Shown here: positions 1,511-39,888 of the stretch, piece after piece
How positions within the stretch are numbered: position 1 is the stretch's first letter
How the letters are laid out: each line of letters begins with the position of its first letter
Origin: a virus
Direction: 5' to 3' (one strand)
Length of the DNA stretch: 39,888 nucleotides
IMG/VR virus record: IMGVR_UViG_3300028666_000063
Span: 1-39,888 of that record
Made by a program: the position numbers and the translations under genes
Notes under the pieces: model-generated
Databases searched by the model: none
What the model was told of the DNA's origin: nothing
Seen by the model: only the letters and a program-made list of their open reading frames with translations

Positions 1511-2985
1511 AGTGTAAACCCCCCTGTACTTCCTGCTCCTCCGAACAACTCTACACTTGGAATGTAGTATGTTTCATTCAGCTTCTCAGGCTTGTTAATT
1601 GCAAAATACTCTGTCATTGTTCTTGGATGTGATGTCCAGTCATGGATAGGGTTGACATTGGCAGATGTTGCCTGTGAACCCTCTTGTCTCTTTGGATAAC
1701 GAGCACTACGCATAGCCTCTAAGTACATTCTATTACGAGGAGTGTCATTTACTTCTATCCCCTCTTGTAGCATTAACTTAGTTGCTGTCTTACGAGACTC
1801 CAGATCATTGGACTTCGTGTTTGTTTGAACGTATATACCATACTTCTGTAATGCTTCTCTAGTAGACATCATGTCTGCTCTCTGATACGAACGCTTACTA
1901 ACGTCTGGATCTCCATAGTGAACAGCCTTTTTAAAGTCCTTAGTGGCATTAATAGCGTTAAGGTCTTCCTCTAAGTATTCAAAGGACGACTCTATTGGCT
2001 TACCAAATAACGGCATGAAAAACTGTATAGGTTTATCTGTCTTAATGAATGAATCAGCTAATCTTATCTTCCCATTCTCTGGATTAACTTGCCACATACC
2101 AATGGCCGTACCATCAAGCCCAAAGTCCCATGAGTCATACAATGGCCAGTCTGGGTTATATGGGTAGTCCCCTAACTTAGCGTGTTCTATCTCTGGATAT
2201 ACGAGACCAGTAAGTGAACCTTCCCAGTTGATGTCTAACTCTCTTGCAACTTCATCATTGGTACGTCTTGCCTTCTGTTCTTGATACCACTTGTCATCCT
2301 TTAGCGGATGCTTATCCCAATGAAGAGTAATAACTTTTACTAGCCCCGAGTTGCGTAAAGCCTTAGCATAAGATGGTTGGTCTGATGGTGTAGTAACTGC
2401 TATACGACAAGGTGTGGCGTCACCAGCAGCCTCCCATGAGCTCTGTTGGAAAGGCCAGAAGGCCATCTCGTCAAAGAATATAACATTATATCTACCAGCA
2501 CGTGAGAAGTTAGCGTTAGCCGACTCTCCCTGTATAACTGAACCAGTCTTTGAGTCTAATAACTTCATGTACAGCCTGTCCTTCTTAGCATCCCAGTCTG
2601 GTATAGGGAATGGATCAAACCTAATAAAGTATTCTATCTTAGGGAATAGTGACTTGAGAGTTCTGTCATCTACATAGTCCTCCTTACGAGAACCGAGTAA
2701 TGCTTGGAAACCCTCGTGATATTTAAAGAACCAATAGATAACACCTAGCGTTACCCATGACACACCCATATCACGAGACTTCTCAACGAATAAATCATAA
2801 CCACCACTAATAGCTGCCGCCAACTCTCTGGCGTATTCTTCTTGAAATGGATATAACTCAAAGTTTAAGTCCTTCCCCTTAGTACGGGGGTCAAAGGTCT
2901 TTAGTGATTTAATAAAGGCAACTACATCCTCCTTGTAGACTGTCTCAAGGCGCTCTCTACGTCTTTGTGCTAGAGCTTGGCCCAT
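1507..2985 (-). CDS. terL: Terminase large subunit
   Basis: A 492-residue packaging motor. The N-terminal ATPase shows a Walker A-like KSRDMGVSW (about residues 88-96) and Walker B IFFDEMAFW (about 169-177). The C-terminal RNase H-like nuclease shows acidic motifs in SWDFGLDGTAIG and HYGDPDVSKR. It cuts concatemeric DNA and pumps it through the portal. It overlaps the small subunit by 16 nt and has its own site AGGAGGATATAAAGAAATG. The C terminus overlaps the next gene by ATGA. Complete, no damage seen. Confidence 0.95.
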   Translation of the reverse strand: MGQALAQRRRERLETVYKEDVVAFIKSLKTFDPRTKGKDLNFELYPFQEEYARELAAAISGGYDLFVEKSRDMGVSWVTLGVIYWFFKYHEGFQALLGSRKEDYVDDRTLKSLFPKIEYFIRFDPFPIPDWDAKKDRLYMKLLDSKTGSVIQGESANANFSRAGRYNVIFFDEMAFWPFQQSSWEAAGDATPCRIAVTTPSDQPSYAKALRNSGLVKVITLHWDKHPLKDDKWYQEQKARRTNDEVARELDINWEGSLTGLVYPEIEHAKLGDYPYNPDWPLYDSWDFGLDGTAIGMWQVNPENGKIRLADSFIKTDKPIQFFMPLFGKPIESSFEYLEEDLNAINATKDFKKAVHYGDPDVSKRSYQRADMMSTREALQKYGIYVQTNTKSNDLESRKTATKLMLQEGIEVNDTPRNRMYLEAMRSARYPKRQEGSQATSANVNPIHDWTSHPRTMTEYFAINKPEKLNETYYIPSVELFGGAGSTGGFTL

Positions 2986-3410
2986 TTCTTTATATCCTCC
3001 ACACTCTTGCCACTAGACACACTTAAAACGTCTAATGCCTCCTCTAGTTCTTGCTCAGGCGTTATCTCATAGTAATTGTTCTGTGTGTTCTGTACTACTA
3101 ATGGACTGTCTTGGTATAGGTTAAGCATCTTTAAGAGTGTTTGCTGATGTATCGCAGAACCATCTTTTGCTTGTTCCACCATCTTAGATACTATCTTAGG
3201 AATAGCTGAATAAATCAGAGCCTGTGAACCATTGAATAAAGCCCCTACAAAGTCTTTACTCTTTAGGGCATCGTAATAGACGCTACGATCTACCTTAGCA
3301 GCCTCACATAAAGCTGTTACAGTTTCATATTGTCCACTCTCCATACATTCTAATAGACTTTGACGTTGTGGTGTAATGTTGGCAATTGTTGGTGTTATAT
3401 CAGTAGTTAT
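2970..3410 (-). CDS. terS: Terminase small subunit, probable AUA start
   Basis: A DNA-recognition subunit placed directly before terL. The first ATG (3344) would remove the first helix of the helix-turn-helix and has no ribosome site. A strong site AGGAGGG at 3424-3418 lies 8 nt before an in-frame ATA at 3410. Translation from there gives 146 residues beginning M-TTDITPTIANITPQRQSLL and restores a full HTH (SLLECMESGQYETVTALCEAAKV). The frame is closed by TAG at 3425-3423 and has no ATG, GTG or TTG in between. The C terminus is a helical oligomerisation region. Identity rests on position and HTH pattern. A sequence error at the start codon is the alternative. Confidence 0.75.
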   Translation of the reverse strand: MTTDITPTIANITPQRQSLLECMESGQYETVTALCEAAKVDRSVYYDALKSKDFVGALFNGSQALIYSAIPKIVSKMVEQAKDGSAIHQQTLLKMLNLYQDSPLVVQNTQNNYYEITPEQELEEALDVLSVSSGKSVEDIKKWAKL

Positions 3411-3456
3411 ATCTATTCCCTCCTACTATCATACCTATTCCTATTTTAGAACAATG

Positions 3457-3744
3457 TCAACTCTTTTTGTACACCTCATTTAGTACACCATAAAACAAGT
3501 AGCTCTCTGCCAGTCCTCTTATATCACTCTCTGGCAATTCAGGGTACTTAACATGACACAATTCATGGACAATATCTAACTCAGTCAATCGTCTATCGTG
3601 ATATATTATATTGTTTGATATTCCTACTAATCTATATGGTCTATTATACGCACAGACTACTTGATCCTTTGATATGTATTCAAAGGTTATCTTGTCTTTG
3701 ATGTTTAGTTTCTTACACCATTTTTTTAGATAATAATGTTTCAT
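3457..3744 (-). CDS. Small HExxH metallopeptidase-like protein
   Basis: A 95-residue protein with a zinc-protease signature, IVHELCHVKYPELPE (HELCH, residues about 66-70), preceded by beta strands as in SprT or ImmA/IrrE-like minimal metallopeptidases. The start chosen is MKHYYLKKW at 3744, whose ATG overlaps the TGA of the preceding 62-residue gene (ATGA). A longer reading from 3786 has no better ribosome site. No signal peptide, so it acts in the cytoplasm. It lies between helicase and terminase. Substrate unknown; could be a degenerate, non-catalytic member. Confidence 0.6.
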   Translation of the reverse strand: MKHYYLKKWCKKLNIKDKITFEYISKDQVVCAYNRPYRLVGISNNIIYHDRRLTELDIVHELCHVKYPELPESDIRGLAESYLFYGVLNEVYKKS

Positions 3745-5705: not shown

Positions 5706-5718
5706 CTTTATATATACG
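5706..5718 (-). promoter_or_regulatory. Late-type promoter element CGTATATATAAAG (site A)
   Basis: Leftward element about 92 bp before the first gene of the left arm. It shares the CGTATATATAA core with sites at 29860, 35344 and 38089. No TTGACA-like box is found 17 bp upstream. It would drive replication, terminase, sugar and sigma genes. Confidence 0.6.
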
Positions 5719-5842: not shown

Positions 5843-5872
5843 TTGACATATATATTATATCCATGATACAAT
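5843..5872 (+). promoter_or_regulatory. Rightward sigma-70-like early promoter
   Basis: TTGACA at 5843-5848, 18-bp spacer, TACAAT at 5867-5872, with an extended -10 TG at 5864-5865. Predicted start is near 5879. It would be read by host RNA polymerase and drive the early arm. The leader to 5963 can fold (GAGGAA 5882-5887 with TTCCTC 5937-5942; GTCCGG 5895-5900 with CCAGAC 5913-5918) before the AAAAGGAG ribosome site. Confidence 0.8.
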
Positions 5873-7263: not shown

Positions 7264-7272
7264 GGAGGAGTT

Positions 7273-7311
7273 ATGAAAGAACCATCCGTAGAGACAAAGG
7301 AGATGAAATGA
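7273..7311 (+). CDS. 12-residue leader peptide MKEPSVETKEMK
   Basis: A tiny ORF behind a near-perfect ribosome site (AAGGAGGAGTT-ATG). It contains the first copy of the repeated EPSVETK coding unit and ends ATGA, overlapping the start of the following gene. It could be a real micropeptide or a device that delivers ribosomes to the next gene. Confidence 0.5.
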   Translation: MKEPSVETKEMK

Positions 7312-7874
7312 GATTAGATTTATACGCAAATGTTGATACCGAGCAGATACTCAATGCTATCGGTTTGAAAGAGGAGTTTATTCCACGACTTAGGGGTGTC
7401 GGTATTGAGGACGGTAAAATACTGATTCATACCAGAACTGGTGGCGGGAACCGAGACAGTTATGACAGCCCTGCTGATGCGATAGAGGGCGAGTATGGGA
7501 TAGACCAATCCATTAAGGATTATGAAAAACCGACAAGCGATTATATCGTAAAGATGTCACAAAAAGAGCGTGATGAAGCTATTGCGGAGATGAAAGAAAG
7601 TAAAGAAAAAATGCTACAAGAGGCATTGTGGACTAACGAGTATATGACAAGAAACCCGTTCTACCTTTCTGACGAAGATGACGACTGGGACAGCACCTAC
7701 GCTAACTTCTGGTTCAAAATACCAGAAAAACTGACCAAGAAACTTTTAAAGCTGGAGAATAAAGAAGCTAAAGCGGTCTATGGCAATGCCAAAGATGCCA
7801 TCGGGTTAATATTTGGTGACAAAGAAGCCGTTAAAAATGTTAAGAAAAGACTTTCAAAACTGGAGCAAAAATGA
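7308..7874 (+). CDS. Unknown 188-residue phage protein
   Basis: Contains RGVGIEDGKILIHTRTGGGNRDSYDSP (about residues 29-55), a segment I associate with conserved phage proteins of unknown function, then an acidic/charged helical part (SQKERDEAIAEMKESKEKM) and a Lys-rich C terminus. Coupled to the 12-residue leader by ATGA and to the next gene by ATGA. No catalytic motif recognised. Confidence 0.72.
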   Translation: MRLDLYANVDTEQILNAIGLKEEFIPRLRGVGIEDGKILIHTRTGGGNRDSYDSPADAIEGEYGIDQSIKDYEKPTSDYIVKMSQKERDEAIAEMKESKEKMLQEALWTNEYMTRNPFYLSDEDDDWDSTYANFWFKIPEKLTKKLLKLENKEAKAVYGNAKDAIGLIFGDKEAVKNVKKRLSKLEQK

Positions 7875-8035
7875 GCACAGAACCATCCGTAGAGACAAAA
7901 GGGTTTTTGAAAGTAAAGCCTATGTCAGAGTCAGAAGCAAAGGTATTTGAACAGAAAATGAATAGTGAACCATCCGTAGAGACAAAGGAAGAGGGAGGAA
8001 AGAATGAAGTGTATTTTATCAAAACTAGGATATGA
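7871..8035 (+). CDS. 54-residue protein with two EPSVETK copies
   Basis: Begins MSTEPSVETKGFLKVKPMS and repeats MNSEPSVETKEE from residue 30. This looks like two fused repeat cassettes. The start overlaps the preceding stop (ATGA). The 3' end overlaps the next gene by 32 nt. No known domain; it may be a by-product of repeat duplication. Confidence 0.5.
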   Translation: MSTEPSVETKGFLKVKPMSESEAKVFEQKMNSEPSVETKEEGGKNEVYFIKTRI

Positions 8036-8634: not shown

Positions 8635-8789
8635 AGAGAATTGACTATTATTCAGAAGAAGATTACAGAAACGCCCAAGAGGAAGAAGAACGAGCAAGAG
8701 AACAGTATGAATACGAGCAGGAAATAGCCGCAAGAGAACAGGTAGAGTTTGAGGCGGCTTATGAAGCCGATATGGAGCAACAAAAATGA
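8625..8789 (+). CDS. 54-residue charged coiled-coil protein
   Basis: AAGGAGGAAAA-ATG precedes a protein made almost entirely of Glu, Arg, Gln and Ala (NAQEEEERAREQYEYEQEIAAREQ). This is a single predicted helix or coiled coil. Ends ATGA into the next gene. Function unknown. Confidence 0.65.
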   Translation: MPVERIDYYSEEDYRNAQEEEERAREQYEYEQEIAAREQVEFEAAYEADMEQQK

Positions 8790-9070
8790 GCATAGAACCA
8801 TCCGTAGAGACAAAGATGCGTTTAGCAATAAATGAGTGGACTCACAGAATTGTCAGAGAGTATGGTTATAAACCAAAACCAGGAGACCCTCCAGTAGCGT
8901 TTATTTGTTACCAAGCAGAGGATATTTTATCTCAAGCCCTCTCCACCCAACAAGCCCAGATGAGGGATAAGTTGAAGGGACTAAAACACGATATTGAAAA
9001 TGATGAAATCCAAGACTTAAAAACAATTGGCTACAACCAAGCAATCACAGATGTATTGGAGTTGCTGTGA
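8786..9070 (+). CDS. 94-residue protein with N-terminal EPSVETK unit
   Basis: Starts MSIEPSVETK, then MRLAINEWTHRIVREYGYKPKPGDPP and a helical C terminus. An internal ATG directly after the repeat (8816) could be the ancestral start, with the repeat added in front. No known domain. Confidence 0.62.
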   Translation: MSIEPSVETKMRLAINEWTHRIVREYGYKPKPGDPPVAFICYQAEDILSQALSTQQAQMRDKLKGLKHDIENDEIQDLKTIGYNQAITDVLELL

Positions 9071-9478: not shown

Positions 9479-9491
9479 CGTATATACCAAG
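9479..9491 (+). promoter_or_regulatory. Late-type promoter element CGTATATACCAAG (site E)
   Basis: The only rightward intergenic copy of the CGTATATA motif, 7 bp after a stop codon and about 87 bp before the lysozyme start. It would switch on lysis and downstream genes late, using the same factor as the leftward head/tail units. Confidence 0.55.
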
Positions 9492-9565: not shown

Positions 9566-10180
9566 ACGAGTAGAGGGAAAAAGATTGCTCTGCTAATCAT
9601 AGTTCTAGCAATACTACTGATTGCAAGCAAAGTATTCGCTAAACAAGTAACTAACCAAACAAAAACAGACCCAACACAAATACAAAAAATAGTAGAACCT
9701 TACCAAAACAAACCCGTAGGGGAAATGCCACAAGGAAACAAACTACCACAGTTTGTATCTATTCCCGAAAAGATGTATACAAACTATACAGTTCCTCAGA
9801 TAACTGTACAAAATCAGCCCGAATCTATACAGTCCGACAACGAAAACGCAGTATGGAACTACCTAATACAGAGATTCACAAGAAACCAGACCGCAGGGAT
9901 TATGGGAAATCTCCAACAAGAACATGGCTTCCAAACCTCTGGAGATGGTTTAGCACAGTGGACAGGCGGAAGAAAATCACGCTTACTAGGAATGGATAAT
10001 CCGTATAGCCTAGAAACACAGTTGAACTTCTTGATAGTTGAGCTCAACGAAAGTGGTCTAGTCTTACCAGATGACCTAGTGGGAGCTACAAGAACCTTTC
10101 AAAATCAATTCGAGAGATGCGGACAATGTAACGAAGTAGGCCGTATAAACTACGCCTACGAAATACTGGCAAGGCATTAA
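9566..10180 (+). CDS. Exported lysozyme (phage tail lysozyme-like), probable ACG start
   Basis: From the only nearby ATG (9725) the protein lacks a signal peptide, yet the in-frame upstream sequence encodes a textbook one: SRGKKIALLIIVLAILLIA then SKVFA-KQ. The frame closes at TAA 9560-9562, and AAGGAAGG at 9552-9559 sits 6 nt before ACG at 9566, which occupies the start position. From there the protein is 204 residues. The catalytic domain (about residues 90-204) shows WNYLIQRFTRNQTAGIMGNLQQEHGF and GDGLAQWTGGRKSRLL, typical of tail-lysozyme muramidases, with the likely catalytic Glu in QQEHGF. It would degrade peptidoglycan from outside the membrane. Confidence 0.75.
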   Translation, partial: TSRGKKIALLIIVLAILLIASKVFAKQVTNQTKTDPTQIQKIVEPYQNKPVGEMPQGNKLPQFVSIPEKMYTNYTVPQITVQNQPESIQSDNENAVWNYLIQRFTRNQTAGIMGNLQQEHGFQTSGDGLAQWTGGRKSRLLGMDNPYSLETQLNFLIVELNESGLVLPDDLVGATRTFQNQFERCGQCNEVGRINYAYEILARH

Positions 10181-18610: not shown

Positions 18611-18934
18611 CTAACTGTAACTAAGTGAAGTTAAATTATCAGCGATATTGTCAAAATTAGAGTTTCCATCAGCCCAAGTGATATTCCCATTGGTGTCTAC
18701 TTTCATGGCTTGCCAAGAAGCTGAGGAAGTTGCTGTCCCGATAGGGGCAAAACCAACAAAAGTATCAGTTCCAGAGGTTTTGATTTGTAAAGCTGATTGA
18801 TCAGATTGTTTAACTTTGACATTTATACCATCTGTCTCGTAAGGAATATGACCGTAAAGTTGGAAGGTATCATTAAAAGACGCATTGTCTAACGCCTGTG
18901 AACTTCTCTTAAAATCATCTCTATTGGTTGCCAC
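18611..18934 (-). CDS. Small virion-associated protein (GTG start)
   Basis: 107 residues; GTG at 18934 behind AAGGTAATCC. Contains SALQIKTSGTDTFVGFAPIG and AMKVDTNGNITWADGNS, motifs reminiscent of fibre-head beta domains. Overlaps the next upstream gene by 14 nt. Confidence 0.58.
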   Translation of the reverse strand: MATNRDDFKRSSQALDNASFNDTFQLYGHIPYETDGINVKVKQSDQSALQIKTSGTDTFVGFAPIGTATSSASWQAMKVDTNGNITWADGNSNFDNIADNLTSLSYS

Positions 18935-19388
18935 GGATTACCTTCTTTAATTCTGCGACTGTCATTTCTTCTACCGGCTTCTTTAAAAACTCTTCTTTAT
19001 CTTTGGCAACTTGGATTAACTTAGATTGAATCCTTGCCCATTCGATTAACCTATCTACTTGCATATATACGCTATCACCCTTAATATTCTTCATCAGATC
19101 GTCTAAAACTGTCTTATAGGAATCCTTAGTATCTCCCAGTCCTCTACGTGAAACCTCTGAGTTGATAAACCTGTCTAACTCTGAAACTGAGTACTTATAA
19201 TCAAATTGTTTAAAGATTTGTGGTGCTTCTAAAACATCTAAAACGTAAGGAACCTTTTTAGCCTCTTGGTAAAGTGAAGGTGGCATCTCACTAGGATTAG
19301 TAACAGTAAAAGTCTTATCTACAGGGGTTTCGACTCTTGGTTCGACAGTTACAGGTGATTCAGTTACAGGAGTTCTAGTTAGTTCCAT
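18921..19388 (-). CDS. Unknown 155-residue structural-region protein
   Basis: Pro/Thr/Val-rich N terminus, then helices (YSVSELDRFINSEVSRRGLG; VDRLIEWARIQSKLIQVAKD) and VAELKKVIRGNQ. A CGTATATA octamer in sense orientation lies inside it (19071-19064). No family recognised. Confidence 0.62.
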   Translation of the reverse strand: MELTRTPVTESPVTVEPRVETPVDKTFTVTNPSEMPPSLYQEAKKVPYVLDVLEAPQIFKQFDYKYSVSELDRFINSEVSRRGLGDTKDSYKTVLDDLMKNIKGDSVYMQVDRLIEWARIQSKLIQVAKDKEEFLKKPVEEMTVAELKKVIRGNQ

Positions 19389-29189: not shown

Positions 29190-29830
29190 TGTACCCAATT
29201 AACCTGACTAGAACCGAGTCCATCAAGGGTGTAGTCGGGACCGTTCATTAAATCAGCAATAAATAGTGCCTTAATTCCCTGTTCGTACTTCTGTTCGTAA
29301 AGTTGCTGTAATTGAGTGTTACGTTCATCAGAAATCCAGTTCTTAGCAGCCGCACCGTAGGCTACCAGTTCAGGGTCAATTACTACACAGATATCAGTAG
29401 GATTAACCATATCTGCTACGTTGTAATGGTAAAAAATAGTGACTGTTCCAGTTTGAATGTTAGAGTTAAATATGTAGGAGTCCGTGATTGGTCCACTATA
29501 GGTAATCCAATAAACGGGGGTAGAAGTATCGTAAGAGTCTCTATCTGCAACATTTATGCATTGAAAAACTTGGTCAGGGTTGCCTGTACCGATAATCCTA
29601 GCGTCATCAATTCCCCAACCAGGGTAATAGTCAGTTGGAAGGGCTGCCGTACCACCAGATAGAGTGATAGAACCCGATTCAAGGTTCCATGAGAACTTAT
29701 AGTCACCTAAAATGTCCTGAATAACTGAATTGATGTGTCTCTGTAAAACAGCAGATGCGGTTGAGGTTGAGGTTTCTCCGATAAGGTCGTTTGCCCTTTG
29801 CTGGACCTGTGCGAACGTACTATTTGCCAT
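29186..29830 (-). CDS. Head-tail adaptor / tubular protein A-like
   Basis: 214 residues. N-terminal helices (FAQVQQRANDLIGETSTSTASAVLQRHINSVIQDIL), then strands, and a C-terminal helix (RNTQLQQLYEQKYEQGIKALF). This matches podovirus adaptor proteins that bind beneath the portal ring. It is the first gene after promoter B, with AAGGAAT as ribosome site, and couples by ATGA to the nozzle gene. Confidence 0.7.
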   Translation of the reverse strand: MANSTFAQVQQRANDLIGETSTSTASAVLQRHINSVIQDILGDYKFSWNLESGSITLSGGTAALPTDYYPGWGIDDARIIGTGNPDQVFQCINVADRDSYDTSTPVYWITYSGPITDSYIFNSNIQTGTVTIFYHYNVADMVNPTDICVVIDPELVAYGAAAKNWISDERNTQLQQLYEQKYEQGIKALFIADLMNGPDYTLDGLGSSQVNWVQ

Positions 29831-29847
29831 GATATTCCTTGCTTATA

Positions 29848-29860
29848 CCTTATATATACG
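29848..29860 (-). promoter_or_regulatory. Late-type promoter element CGTATATATAAGG (site B)
   Basis: Lies 18 bp before the adaptor start, preceded by TTTGT and followed by TATAAGCAAGGAAT. The surrounding 35 bp are nearly the same as at site D (38089). It would give a very short leader and drive the tail, internal protein, fibre and lysis genes. Confidence 0.68.
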
Positions 29861-34210: not shown

Positions 34211-34214
34211 GTTA

Positions 34215-34251
34215 ATTCTCCATCCCTTCTACTCTTCGACCTTGGGAGAAT
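34215..34251 (-). promoter_or_regulatory. Hairpin sequestering the capsid ribosome site
   Basis: In the leftward RNA ATTCTCC (34251-34245) is complementary to GGAGAAT (34221-34215), which contains the Shine-Dalgarno of the capsid gene. A 23-nt loop separates them. Ribosomes or a protein could open it. Confidence 0.5.
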
Positions 34252-34265
34252 CCAGAGTTATAGTG

Positions 34266-34913: not shown

Positions 34914-34966
34914 CTGGATTCCTTTCACATTTTTACGTCTTCTGTGACGATTGAAGGGTACTTTTT

Positions 34967-35026: not shown

Positions 35027-35317
35027 CTATTCTTGTGGTAGTAATTTCTTTAAGCCTTCTAACTCAGCTTTGTCACCTTCTGTGACTGCGTTCTCTTCGT
35101 AGAATTTAATCTTGTTCTTGATCTCTGTGATAACGTCTGCCTGTAGAACGGGTACTGGACCTTCTGCGACATCTTGAGCAATCTCGTTAAGAGTCCTTAC
35201 TTCTTCTACTTCGGGTTCATCCTCTACGACTGCCTCTGCTATCTCTGGGGTAACTTCAGGAACTGGGGTAATTTCAGGTGTTGCAATATCTGCAACGGTT
35301 GGTTCTACTTCTGCCAT
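35027..35317 (-). CDS. Acidic Pro/Glu/Val-rich head protein
   Basis: 96 residues from ATG 35317 (site AAGGAGAACATT). The first 45 residues are a repetitive PEITPVPEVTPEIAEAVVEDEPEVEEV tract type; the rest helical (ADVITEIKNKIKFYEENAV). Between promoter C and scaffold. Perhaps an accessory scaffold or head decoration; unproven. Confidence 0.65.
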   Translation of the reverse strand: MAEVEPTVADIATPEITPVPEVTPEIAEAVVEDEPEVEEVRTLNEIAQDVAEGPVPVLQADVITEIKNKIKFYEENAVTEGDKAELEGLKKLLPQE

Positions 35318-35331
35318 AATGTTCTCCTTCA

Positions 35332-35344
35332 TTTTATATATACG
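35332..35344 (-). promoter_or_regulatory. Late-type promoter element CGTATATATAAAA (site C)
   Basis: Abuts the stop of the upstream gene and lies 15 bp before the start at 35317. It would give extra expression of the scaffold and capsid genes, ending at the 33173 terminator. Confidence 0.65.
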
Positions 35345-35751: not shown

Positions 35752-35969
35752 TACTTTCCTTTCTTTACTCTTTTACGACCGGCAACGGCCATTGCTTGAA
35801 ACTTTGCTGCGCCATACTTCTTACGACCTTCGATAGCAGCGATTGCTTTGGCTTCTTTAATCCCACCCTTAGGTTTTGACTTCATAATGGCGTTAGTTGT
35901 TTGTTTAAACTGTCCACCACCACCCGGTTTGTTTGACTTTCCGCCTGTTTTTCCTGTAGTTCTAAGCAT
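35751..35969 (-). CDS. Very basic Gly/Lys-rich 72-residue protein
   Basis: MLRTTGKTGGKSNKPGGGGQ followed by KSKPKGGIKEAKAIAAIEGRKK and GRKRVKKGK. Strongly basic, suited to binding DNA. TAATG overlap with the portal stop. Could be a capsid-internal DNA-binding protein. Confidence 0.65.
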   Translation of the reverse strand: MLRTTGKTGGKSNKPGGGGQFKQTTNAIMKSKPKGGIKEAKAIAAIEGRKKYGAAKFQAMAVAGRKRVKKGK

Positions 35970-38059
35970 TATTTCTTCCTTTTCTTTACTGATCCTATTG
36001 GTACGATTGGTACTGGATTGTTTGGCATACCCTGCATAGTAGGGTCTCCCTGAGGCATCTGAGGGGTCTGTGGCGGCATTTGCGGTGCGTTCTGCATAGA
36101 TTGTGTACCACCTGTCATTCCTGCACTTGCGAATCTAGGGTCTTGCTGCAATCTCTGTATTTCTTGTGGACTTAGATTAACGCCGTCCTGTTGTAAAGGA
36201 TTCTGTTGTGGTTGTCCTTGTCCCTGTTGCTGTACATCTTGAGGATTTAACTGAATACCAGCGTTAGCAGCCATTTGCATCTTGCCATCTGGTGGAAGAT
36301 CAGCAAAGTTCATATTCTCTGTCATCTTCCTAGCAGCTGGTGGCATACCCGATTGAGAAGCGTCTTGACCTTGTAAGATATACTGGTCAGGTTCTTTAAT
36401 CCCTGAGTCTAAAGCGATATCAAGCCACATCTTCTCACGATCAATCGGAACGTAGAGTTGAGATGCTAGGTTAACTAACATTGTTTTGTTTTCAATTGAT
36501 TCTTTTAAGTCAACTGAAGCATTAGAACCTGTTTCAACGTGGATAATCCAGTCAACATCAAACAAGATATCTTTCTTAGGGTCTTTACCTTCTTGTAACA
36601 TTACATTAACGATTGCTTGGATCTCTTCGTCTTTAGCCACGTTTGCTTGCATTAAGTCAATAAGTTTAATTTTGCCTGTTAGAAATCCTTTAGTAACCTT
36701 GACCCACTTAGAGTCTTCACCACCGACTAGAATCCATTTAAAGTCAGAATCAGACATAGTGGCACCTACCATCTTTAAGGCTTTGTTCATAAATGGTTCG
36801 ATTAAAGATTCTTCGATATTGTTCTGTCTATCTTGGATAGGTGCTTGTCCTGCTGACATCAAAGTTTGAATACCTGCAGCTGTGCCTTGTGTTTTATCGG
36901 AAGGTTGATTTGAAACTCCTGCAGTATATGCGCCCACACCGGAGATTGATTCAGCACGTTGCTCGATGTAGTTCATCATATCGAGTCCAGCGGCTTGAGG
37001 TGCGTTTGAGATAGGTTCTTGGTGTATCTGTGAAGGATTAGCAAGAACAATTCCACCCAGTTTGTACATATTGGCAACGGTCTTTAGATTAATTGGACCT
37101 ACGGTTGGGTCAACTATCGTAGGTGGGTTAAGAACCTTAGCACCATAGTCTACCGTTTGTGATAGGATTAAGTCTTTGGCTTTGAATAGACCTGCCTGTG
37201 GGTCAATGATCGACATAGCATAAGGTTCTTTAACTACCTCAATGTCCATCGCAAAGTCTAGTGGGTCGTCATCAAGGATTGAATCAAATTCTTGGACGAA
37301 TATAGGATTGCTAGAATCCAAATCAACAACGAATCTACAACAATGCTTTCCTTCCCAGCGTGATATTAGAAGGTGCTGATCTACCTGACGACCAATAGTT
37401 GTTCCCGTACGGTTCATTAGTACTGGTGAAGGGTCAGGCTTCTCAGCGTTCTTTAATGAATCTCTTTTTAACTGTTTGATTCCTGCTGAGTTAAATATCC
37501 CTGTGATAACTTCACCATCTTTTTTAATCTCGACGTTGTCTTCTAGGTAATCAAGTGAGACAAACTGTTCGATATAATAAACTGGACTTGTCTTTAAGGA
37601 TTTAGAAGGATCAAAGATAACATCTTCAACTGCGATAGGCCTCATGTCAGGTGCATCTGCCTTAGGATTCCAGTAAGTTTCACAACCTACATTACCAGTA
37701 ACACTGAACTCTCTACCCAAGACTTTTAGTTTAGACTTCATTGGTCCAGTTGCGGAGATGACGTCAGGATTAGTCCAGATAAACTCTGCTACTGAAGTGA
37801 TAATACGTTTAACCTCACGAGGTAGGTTAAATCCAGTTGATTCAGCATTAAACTTAGGTTCGTTCTCGAATAAACGAAGTACCATTCTCTCTACAAGTTC
37901 AAAGGCAACGGGGTCAGCGATCTTTACATTAGTTCCTGACTGGTCAAAGTAACCCGAATAACGTTTATAGTTCTCTTTAAACCTCAATTGGTAGTTGGAA
38001 AGTAAAGGTTTCCACCTTGCGTATTCTTCTTTGTAGGACTGAACGTCTGGTTTATTCAT
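35969..38059 (-). CDS. Portal protein
   Basis: 696 residues. N-terminal helical clamp region (EEYARWKPLLSNYQLRFKENYKRYSGYFD), wing segments (DPVAFELVERMVLRLFENEPKFN; GNVGCETYWNPKADAPDMRPIAVEDVIFDP), crown helices (EQRAESISGVGAYTAGVSNQPSDKTQGTAAGIQTLM) and a Pro/Gln/Met-rich disordered C terminus (about 590-690). This is the layout of podovirus portals of N4/T7-like phages. Led by promoter D, site AAGGAATTACT. Confidence 0.88.
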   Translation of the reverse strand: MNKPDVQSYKEEYARWKPLLSNYQLRFKENYKRYSGYFDQSGTNVKIADPVAFELVERMVLRLFENEPKFNAESTGFNLPREVKRIITSVAEFIWTNPDVISATGPMKSKLKVLGREFSVTGNVGCETYWNPKADAPDMRPIAVEDVIFDPSKSLKTSPVYYIEQFVSLDYLEDNVEIKKDGEVITGIFNSAGIKQLKRDSLKNAEKPDPSPVLMNRTGTTIGRQVDQHLLISRWEGKHCCRFVVDLDSSNPIFVQEFDSILDDDPLDFAMDIEVVKEPYAMSIIDPQAGLFKAKDLILSQTVDYGAKVLNPPTIVDPTVGPINLKTVANMYKLGGIVLANPSQIHQEPISNAPQAAGLDMMNYIEQRAESISGVGAYTAGVSNQPSDKTQGTAAGIQTLMSAGQAPIQDRQNNIEESLIEPFMNKALKMVGATMSDSDFKWILVGGEDSKWVKVTKGFLTGKIKLIDLMQANVAKDEEIQAIVNVMLQEGKDPKKDILFDVDWIIHVETGSNASVDLKESIENKTMLVNLASQLYVPIDREKMWLDIALDSGIKEPDQYILQGQDASQSGMPPAARKMTENMNFADLPPDGKMQMAANAGIQLNPQDVQQQGQGQPQQNPLQQDGVNLSPQEIQRLQQDPRFASAGMTGGTQSMQNAPQMPPQTPQMPQGDPTMQGMPNNPVPIVPIGSVKKRKK

Positions 38060-38076
38060 AGTAATTCCTTGTTATA

Positions 38077-38089
38077 CTCTGTATATACG
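38077..38089 (-). promoter_or_regulatory. Late-type promoter element CGTATATACAGAG (site D)
   Basis: 18 bp before the portal start, between sigma and portal genes. Flanks TTTGT...TATAACAAGGAAT match site B almost base for base. Confidence 0.68.
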
Positions 38090-38095
38090 ACAAAG

Positions 38096-38443
38096 TTACA
38101 AGATATCTTCAAGTCTGATGTTATTTTCTTCACAAAAGTCAATTAAGTAGTCTAAATCATCAGCGATTGACTCTAAATAGTCTGGTAAACTCACAACGGG
38201 TAGCCCATTACTGCGTTTCTTGCGGTTCTCTTGCTTTAGTAGATCACGTAAGTGGTTTATAATCACTGGTTTAGCCCAAGTAATCACAGTTCCCTGCTCT
38301 GGGTCAAACTTATCTAGTTTCTTCCATAGGTGTAACCTTGATTCTTGTCGTAAATCTTCGAAGTCATATCCCGGAATCCAATATCTACGACACCAGTAGT
38401 GGATTGAGGGTTCACATAATGCTAGTTCGTGTTCTTTATTCAT
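38096..38443 (-). CDS. Region-2-only sigma factor-like protein
   Basis: 115 residues. The central part YDFEDLRQESRLHLWKKLDKFDPEQGTVITWAKPVIINHLRDLLKQ matches sigma-70 region 2 (core-binding helix 2.2, then 2.3/2.4 that melts and reads the -10). No region 4 follows; the C terminus is a short acidic helix (DYLIDFCEENNIRLEDIL). The plan is that of T4 gp55. It would direct host core polymerase to -10-only phage promoters; CGTATATA is the natural candidate. Start overlaps a 44-residue ORF by 8 nt. Confidence 0.78.
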   Translation of the reverse strand: MNKEHELALCEPSIHYWCRRYWIPGYDFEDLRQESRLHLWKKLDKFDPEQGTVITWAKPVIINHLRDLLKQENRKKRSNGLPVVSLPDYLESIADDLDYLIDFCEENNIRLEDIL

Positions 38444-39431: not shown

Positions 39432-39888
39432 CTAATCTGTCCACTCCATTTCCTCTCGTAACTTCTCTCCTGGTCTGATACCGATGATCTCCACCCCTGG
39501 GGTATATTCTTCTGCGGAGTTATACCCATGTCTCTTAAGTACATCTGATAACATATCTAGTAAACGGACTTCTTTACACAAAGGAATGATGACTTTGTTA
39601 CCTTCAAGAAACTCATTCCACAAGACTGTAGCCGCTTGGATATCTTCGATGACGTATCGAATCATATTTATATCTGTGATGGGGATAGGTAACTTATCTT
39701 TAATGGCTTGTTCCCAGATAGGGATAACTGATCCAGAAGATGCAAGAAGATTCCCACACCTACCGACTTACCCCCCGTAATATAAAGCTAGTTCCTCACC
39801 GATAGCCTTAGTAAAACCATAGAAGTTAATAGGTTTAACTGCTTTGTCTGTTGAGATGAATAAGAATGGTGTTCGTAGTCTATGTAGT
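39432..39888 (-). CDS. UDP-GlcNAc 4,6-dehydratase-like SDR, C-terminal part and second copy of repeat
   Basis: Continuation of the gene at 1-533. The part below 39643 encodes the CapD/PseB C terminus: VIPLCKEVRLLDMLSDVL, then IIGIRPGEKLREEM, the diagnostic IGIRPGEKLHE-type motif. In this copy codon 39770-39768 is TAA where the left copy has TCA, so read only from here the frame is broken, and an internal ATG at 39665 could restart. The intact reading uses the left copy. Confidence 0.8.
39643..39888. repeat. Terminal redundancy, right copy
   Basis: 246 bp identical to 1-246 except T at 39769. Confidence 0.95.

Follow-up and report, generated by a model that had tools for sequence, protein, structure and literature searches.

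A domain-2-only sigma factor encoded beside the portal gene in a phage family and its predicted single-element promoters

INTRODUCTION

The phage genome studied here (hereafter the window, meaning the whole stretch of 39,888 bases that was analysed, an IMG/VR virus record) carries, just before its portal gene, a small gene for a protein with sigma factor region 2, and the short word CGTATATA recurs in front of several of its transcription units. Do the two belong together, and could so small a protein direct transcription from so short an element? An earlier note, made from the sequence of the window, had paired them, likening the protein to gp55 of phage T4 and the word to a family of late promoters. 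The principle of a sigma without region 4 acting on a one-box promoter is already known from T4 and phiEco32. Gp55 alone supports accurate basal initiation on sigma-free core RNA polymerase, and T4 late promoters have an 8-bp TATA box at –10 and no –35 element (PMC2988020). Gp36 of phiEco32, also devoid of region 4, is associated with a single element, tAATGTAtA, and transcription starts 6–8 bp downstream of it (PMC8948821).

RESULTS

The genome and its relatives

The terminal 246 bases of the window are identical at both ends, and it therefore looks like a complete phage genome of ∼39.6 kb. Relatives, all of them uncultured phages, were recruited with portal, capsid and sigma alignments; no matches came from viral contigs searched with the window sigma as a single sequence, nor from genome contigs scanned with sigma and portal profiles. 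The sigma gene lies directly 5′ of the portal gene in L003/L027, L006/L021, L022/L023, L024, L025 and L026 (L003, L026, L006 and L022 correspond to genomes G001, G002, G003 and G004). The L010 contig starts within the sigma gene, which is seen there as a fragment only, and the end of its frame, EDLDCVLSILIENDMTLDDLS, parallels DDLDYLIDFCEENNIRLEDIL of the window. The sigma–portal arrangement is kept in 8 lineages, that is the window and 7 others. No sigma was detected in 18.8 kb of L001 (portal 44% identical), where an unrelated 90-aa ORF takes its place before the portal gene; this contig is partial, so the gene could lie elsewhere. Nor was a sigma detected in 11.8 kb of L014 (capsid 34% identical), also a partial contig.

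Several other features of these genomes deserve mention. A sugar-epimerase-like frame runs across the terminal repeat of the window and is interrupted at a six-G run (∼39768–39773, minus strand); it is unbroken at the corresponding place in L003 and L006, and the break is either a true frameshift or a sequencing error. The early genes contain a 20-nt repeat, GAACCATCCGTAGAGACAAA, on the plus strand (7265–7298, 7866–7899, 7953–7986 and 8781–8814), which encodes EPSVETK near the N-terminus of several of their products (MSTEPSVETK, MSIEPSVETK). A short hairpin followed by an A-rich stretch precedes the scaffold gene (34936–34949, minus strand) and is also present in L003, L006, L010, L022 and L024. 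Its 4-bp stem covaries, as judged by eye: CGTC/GACG in the window and L010, CGAG/CTCG in L003 and L006, CGTG/CACG in L022 and L024. RNAalifold on longer stretches gave no pairs and Rfam no match for this hairpin, and the Rfam scan of the window returned no RNA family. Finally, a conserved stretch with GGTCGA lies ahead of the major capsid gene in the window (34211–34265, minus strand) and in most relatives, including L014, in which no sigma was detected.

A sigma protein reduced to domain 2

The 115-aa protein belongs to the sigma-70 family via its domain 2. Pfam Sigma70_r2 matches residues 11–74 (E 6.4e–14, 51.9 bits against a cutoff of 24) and is the sole match in the Pfam scan, which found no region 4. 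The best sequence family for the domain is the general ECF/sigma-70 model of NCBIfam, TIGR02937 (52.3 bits against a cutoff of 42.9). An AlphaFold model built from an alignment of seven family members has a mean pLDDT of 84.8, exceeding 90 in the first 70 residues, and superposes on domain 2 of RpoS, SigE and other sigmas of the PDB over ∼70 residues at 1.9–2.6 Å. The top Foldseek matches are sigma chains; their E-values are just 0.008–0.1 because the domain is small.

Full-length sigmas of the family measure 97–136 aa and share 27–38% identity with the window protein in a multiple alignment. Region 2 scores above the Pfam cutoff in 7/7 full-length members, and region 4 is absent by Pfam from the window protein and six homologues. 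Assignment to the two-domain ECF class was rejected on these grounds, the lack of region 4 and the family length of just 97–136 aa. Next to the gene lie a short ORF, a gene of aminotransferase type and the portal gene, whose ATG at 38059 follows the sigma stop codon by 36 nt (Table 1); none of them encodes an adjacent domain-4 subunit of the SigO/RsoA type. The region-2-only protein described by the earlier note is thus confirmed in both its content and its place.

Other phage sigmas recovered by profile search (L028–L066, mostly 156–206 aa) form a separate set, of which L028, the sole member checked, gave weak matches to region 4. In L034 (IMGVR_UViG_3300033062_001570), a 180-aa phage ORF at 3048–3587 has its sigma domains in reversed order: a region-4-like HTH at residues 2–52 (Pfam E 3.5e–15) is followed by a region 2 at 95–141 (E 1.7e–10) that resembles the window sigma family. 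The viral contigs gave no second example of this order.

Table 1. Coordinates of the sigma and portal genes and of the promoter-like elements in the window
Feature	Coordinates	Strand	Remarks
Sigma gene	38096..38443	-	115 aa, domain 2 only
Portal gene	35969..38059	-	phrog_1216 portal protein, E 1.9e–8; follows the sigma gene and the 38089 element directly
CGTATATA element before portal gene	38082..38089	-	Predicted start nucleotide 38075 (A)
CGTATATA element before small gene at 35317	35337..35344	-	Predicted start 35330 (G)
CGTATATA element before tail-region gene at 29830	29853..29860	-	Predicted start 29846 (A)
CGTATATA element before leftward replication/packaging genes (5614 onward)	5711..5718	-	Predicted start 5704 (A)
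CGTATATA element upstream of lysozyme-type gene at 9725	9479..9486	+	Predicted start 9493 (A)
CGTATATA in gene 18921–19388, co-oriented	19064..19071	-	137 nt before next start; status undecided
CGTATATA antisense in large terminase gene	1830..1837	+	Probably a chance copy
TTGACA-18-TACAAT	5843..5872	+	Likely host-type promoter of early rightward genes; 11/12 consensus matches, TG before second hexamer

The motif in the window

The window holds seven copies of CGTATATA, whereas 100 dinucleotide-shuffled sequences hold 1.00 on average and 4 at most. Five of them are non-coding, on the transcribed strand and before transcription units (binomial P = 2.5e–6); this placement test is conservative, since part of 1–529 and 39666–39888 is a broken reading frame and the non-coding fraction is somewhat overstated. 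When the oriented intergenic sequence was shuffled alone, 0.105 copies were expected against the 5 observed, and 0/2000 shuffles reached 5. The count and the placement agree with the earlier note, which had counted the same seven copies at the same positions and set two of them inside genes. One of these, at 1830(+), is most likely there by chance, being antisense in the terminase gene; the other, at 19071(–), is co-oriented with its gene.

The extended similarity of the 38089 and 29860 sites, noticed before, is real and spans a long stretch (TTTGTCGTATATA...GTATAA..CAAGGAAT) with one indel. In both (38060–38089 and 29831–29860, minus strand) a second GTATAA word follows the first by ∼11 nt, and the predicted start falls inside this second TATA-like word. 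Partial echoes of it occur in L006 and L002 sites.

The TTGACA-18-TACAAT match (Table 1) is a consensus match only, and the number of such matches in the region is not above that in shuffles. On the strand of the sigma gene, no good host-type promoter is visible ahead of it.

The motif in relatives

A genome-specific GTATA/CATATA motif occurs at gene junctions in 6/7 other sigma-bearing lineages, before the same late genes, and three short contigs also carry a lineage-specific version there. In L003 it reads GTGTATATA (6 copies, all on the late strand, 5/6 no more than 40 nt from a late gene start) and in L026 TTCGTATATTC (5 copies, 4/5 within 33 nt of late starts, 1 antisense). Every copy of ATGTATATCTA in L022 (3/3), of GCGTGTATATGG in L025 (2/2) and of AGCATATATA in L010 and L013 (3/3) lies on the late strand within 40 nt before a late start. 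L006 has CGTATA(A/T) at three junctions, with looser matches elsewhere, and L002 and L011 have one GTGTATATAC site each. At the portal junction the motif is present in 7/8 sigma-bearing lineages. In the window, L003, L025, L026 and L013 it also precedes the gene at 29830 or its orthologue; the orthologous junction of L001 lacks it, and a weak GCGTATAG lies 40 nt before the portal start of this partial contig with no detected sigma. The earlier note had named as evidence against the pairing that relatives with the sigma gene should have lost the motif, and this was not the pattern found. L024 keeps the sigma and shows no clear motif, but it offers essentially one usable junction, as the contig ends before most late genes.

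As the word for each genome had been picked with its sites already in view, we also scanned all gene junctions with one loose pattern common to all genomes. In sigma-bearing contigs it matched 28/238 junctions, compared with 14.1 in shuffles (sd 3.5, maximum 27 in 300) and 7 on the opposite strand; in relatives without sigma it matched 15/118, compared with 13.9 in shuffles and 14 on the opposite strand. Only sigma-bearing phages thus show an excess of the motif, and they show it on one strand. Unbiased k-mer enrichment ranked the motif top in L027 and L026 (8-mers), while in the window, L006 and L022 Shine-Dalgarno or A-rich words outranked it, and for this reason we relied on placement and on orthologous junctions.

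Promoter anatomy and predicted leaderless mRNAs

To describe the element we aligned 27 sites of related genomes and numbered them from the first T of TATA (position 0); TATA itself is fixed by construction. The shared signal is YG-TATAT-N7-R: C or T at –2 in 27/27 sites, G at –1 in 24/27, T at +4 in 25/27 and a purine at +12 in 26/27. The purine at +12, 7 nt past TATAT, is the predicted transcription start. A purine stands at the predicted start in 24/25 sites (binomial P = 2.4e–5, uncorrected for the columns examined), a figure that is overstated because some of these purines lie in a second TATA-like word and sites within one genome are related.

A TTGACA-like hexamer at the right distance is absent from the 27 sites (mean best match 3.41 versus 3.50 at random offsets), which extends to the whole set the lack of a visible –35 first noticed in the window. 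Column –23 is a purine in 25/27 sites, above chance (P about 0.002 over 53 columns); it may reflect a weak upstream contact or the codon phase of the gene running into the promoter.

Start codons lie at +10 to +35 in the 24 sites with an assigned start codon. With +12 as the start, leaders of 4 nt or less are left in 7/24, and in L022 the A of ATG falls exactly at +12 in two genes. A Shine-Dalgarno match of at least 4 bases is found in 0/7 short-leader sites versus 16/17 longer ones (Fisher P = 2e–5), a contrast that is partly geometric, as the motif occupies that space, and that describes the type of mRNA if the sites are promoters but does not prove them to be such. If they are, late mRNAs would be leaderless in several relatives.

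DISCUSSION

The best explanation of our data, to which we give a probability of roughly 85%, is that the phage makes a domain-2-only sigma that reads a single –10-type element, CGTATATA, before middle and late genes. It builds on direct observations: the ORF and its domain content, the excess and placement of the motif, the conservation of gene and motif, and the absence of a TTGACA-like element. The 115-aa protein would dock on the core of the host RNA polymerase, by analogy at the β′ coiled coil, read and open DNA at the element, and initiate at a purine ∼7 nt beyond TATAT. Early genes would rely on a promoter of the ordinary –35/–10 kind. We infer that this sigma, rather than another factor, is the reader of the motif, and the temporal class of the genes and the start sites are likewise predicted. 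In L006 the operon of packaging genes that leads to the sigma gene has a motif site at its head (18310 of G003), an arrangement that may allow self-amplification. Taken at the level of sequence, the pairing of sigma and one-box promoter proposed in the earlier note is probably real, supported by retention of the motif in relatives with the sigma, lack of enrichment where none is detectable, and the purine at the start position.

Among known systems, gp36 of phiEco32 offers the nearest parallel: a phage sigma without region 4 whose one-element promoters are spread before middle and late genes. Its element tAATGTAtA is comparable to ATGTATATCTA of L022 and GTGTATATA of L003, and its start 6–8 bp past the element may be compared with our predicted start, the purine 7 nt past TATAT (26/27 sites). 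However, gp36 has 214 aa against 97–136 aa in the window family, and phiEco32 uses the inhibitor/activator gp79 (PMC8948821), not found in the window system. Unlike in phiEco32, the sigma gene lies beside the portal gene and leaderless mRNAs are predicted. Homology to gp36 beyond generic region 2 was not supported (hhalign probability 19.6%, 23 columns).

T4 gp55 also has region 2 and lacks region 4, so the earlier comparison holds as a fair analogy in these respects and in the single element; homology to gp55 is not demonstrable. The window element YGTATAT differs from the T4 box, and the window sigma is much shorter than gp55. The C-terminus of the window sigma (..RLEDIL) had suggested a T4-like clamp-binding tail, an idea rejected as the tail is not conserved: an acidic-hydrophobic end is found in the window, L010 and L006 only, and the proteins of L025 and L026 extend little beyond region 2. 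In mechanism, gp36 appears closer than gp55, neither being a demonstrated homologue beyond the shared domain. By analogy, basal initiation by gp55 and the use of single-element promoters by the region-4-less gp36 would support the domain-2-only reading.

Gp47 of phage 7-11 resembles our case in being a late sigma whose gene lies within the cluster of late genes, with late promoters at comparable genome positions, but it possesses region 4, and its promoters are bipartite, GTAAtg-(16)-aCTA (PMC8948821). RsoA of Bacillus subtilis is a stand-alone sigma domain-2 polypeptide that needs a separately encoded domain-4 protein, SigO (PMC8103513); no such partner lies beside the window sigma gene. ECF sigmas have domains 2 and 4, while the window sigma has domain 2 only, though TIGR02937 is its best family match.

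The RsoA case leads to a possible, if unlikely, variant, in which the domain-2 protein depends on a separate partner, encoded by phage or host, that occupies the β flap, the promoters still being one-element. Both comparators have helpers, gp33/gp45 in T4 (PMC2988020) and gp79 in phiEco32 (PMC8948821), RsoA requires SigO (PMC8103513), and in the distant phage sigma L034 a related domain 2 follows a region-4-like HTH within one protein. On the other hand, gp55 alone suffices for basal initiation in vitro (PMC2988020), and a search with two region-4-like HTH sequences gave one weak match, in G001 only. Pfam found neither a region-4 domain nor a gp33-like candidate in 30 window proteins, a result of little weight for gp33, which has no recognisable sigma similarity. 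The two-subunit arrangement is a refinement of the domain-2-only reading, and both could hold together.

Far less probable is that the motif is an extended –10 promoter of the host primary sigma and that the phage sigma does another job. TATATA is similar to the –10 hexamer, and extended –10 promoters can dispense with a –35. However, the fixed YG directly 5′ of TATAT differs from the TGn of the extended –10, the element varies by lineage (TCGTATATA, GTGTATATA, TTCGTATATTC, GCGTGTATATGG), relatives without the sigma have no junction excess (15/118 versus 13.9), and the window's likely early promoter is of a different, –35/–10 type. An RNA-level signal for translation or processing, or an operator, is less probable still: the motif is close to start codons and often abuts the preceding stop codon, but its distance to the start codon varies (+10 to +35), the next annotated start is ∼100 and 245 nt away in two window sites, the +12 purine keeps its spacing to the motif and not to the start codon, and the Shine-Dalgarno sequence is normal in 16/17 longer cases (0/7 short ones, a difference that is partly geometric).

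What appears to be new here, within the collections and the open-access literature searched, is an independent family of such sigmas, their small size, the location of their genes next to the portal gene and an element that differs from one lineage to the next. The broader proposition, namely a self-sufficient sigma of ∼100 residues with one-element late promoters, existing as at least seven diversified sigma/promoter pairs in one phage family, in several of which late mRNAs would begin at the start codon or a few nucleotides from it, we regard as evenly balanced.

The family bears on a basic question, how little of sigma suffices for specific initiation. Gp55 and gp36 exceed the present proteins in size, and full activity in T4 requires helpers; the family offers a natural series of candidate sigmas of 97–136 residues together with predicted promoters. 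The series points to joint re-tuning of sigma and promoter within a phage family and predicts leaderless late mRNAs. It also provides a one-gene marker and a motif recipe by which late transcription may be mapped in uncultured phages.
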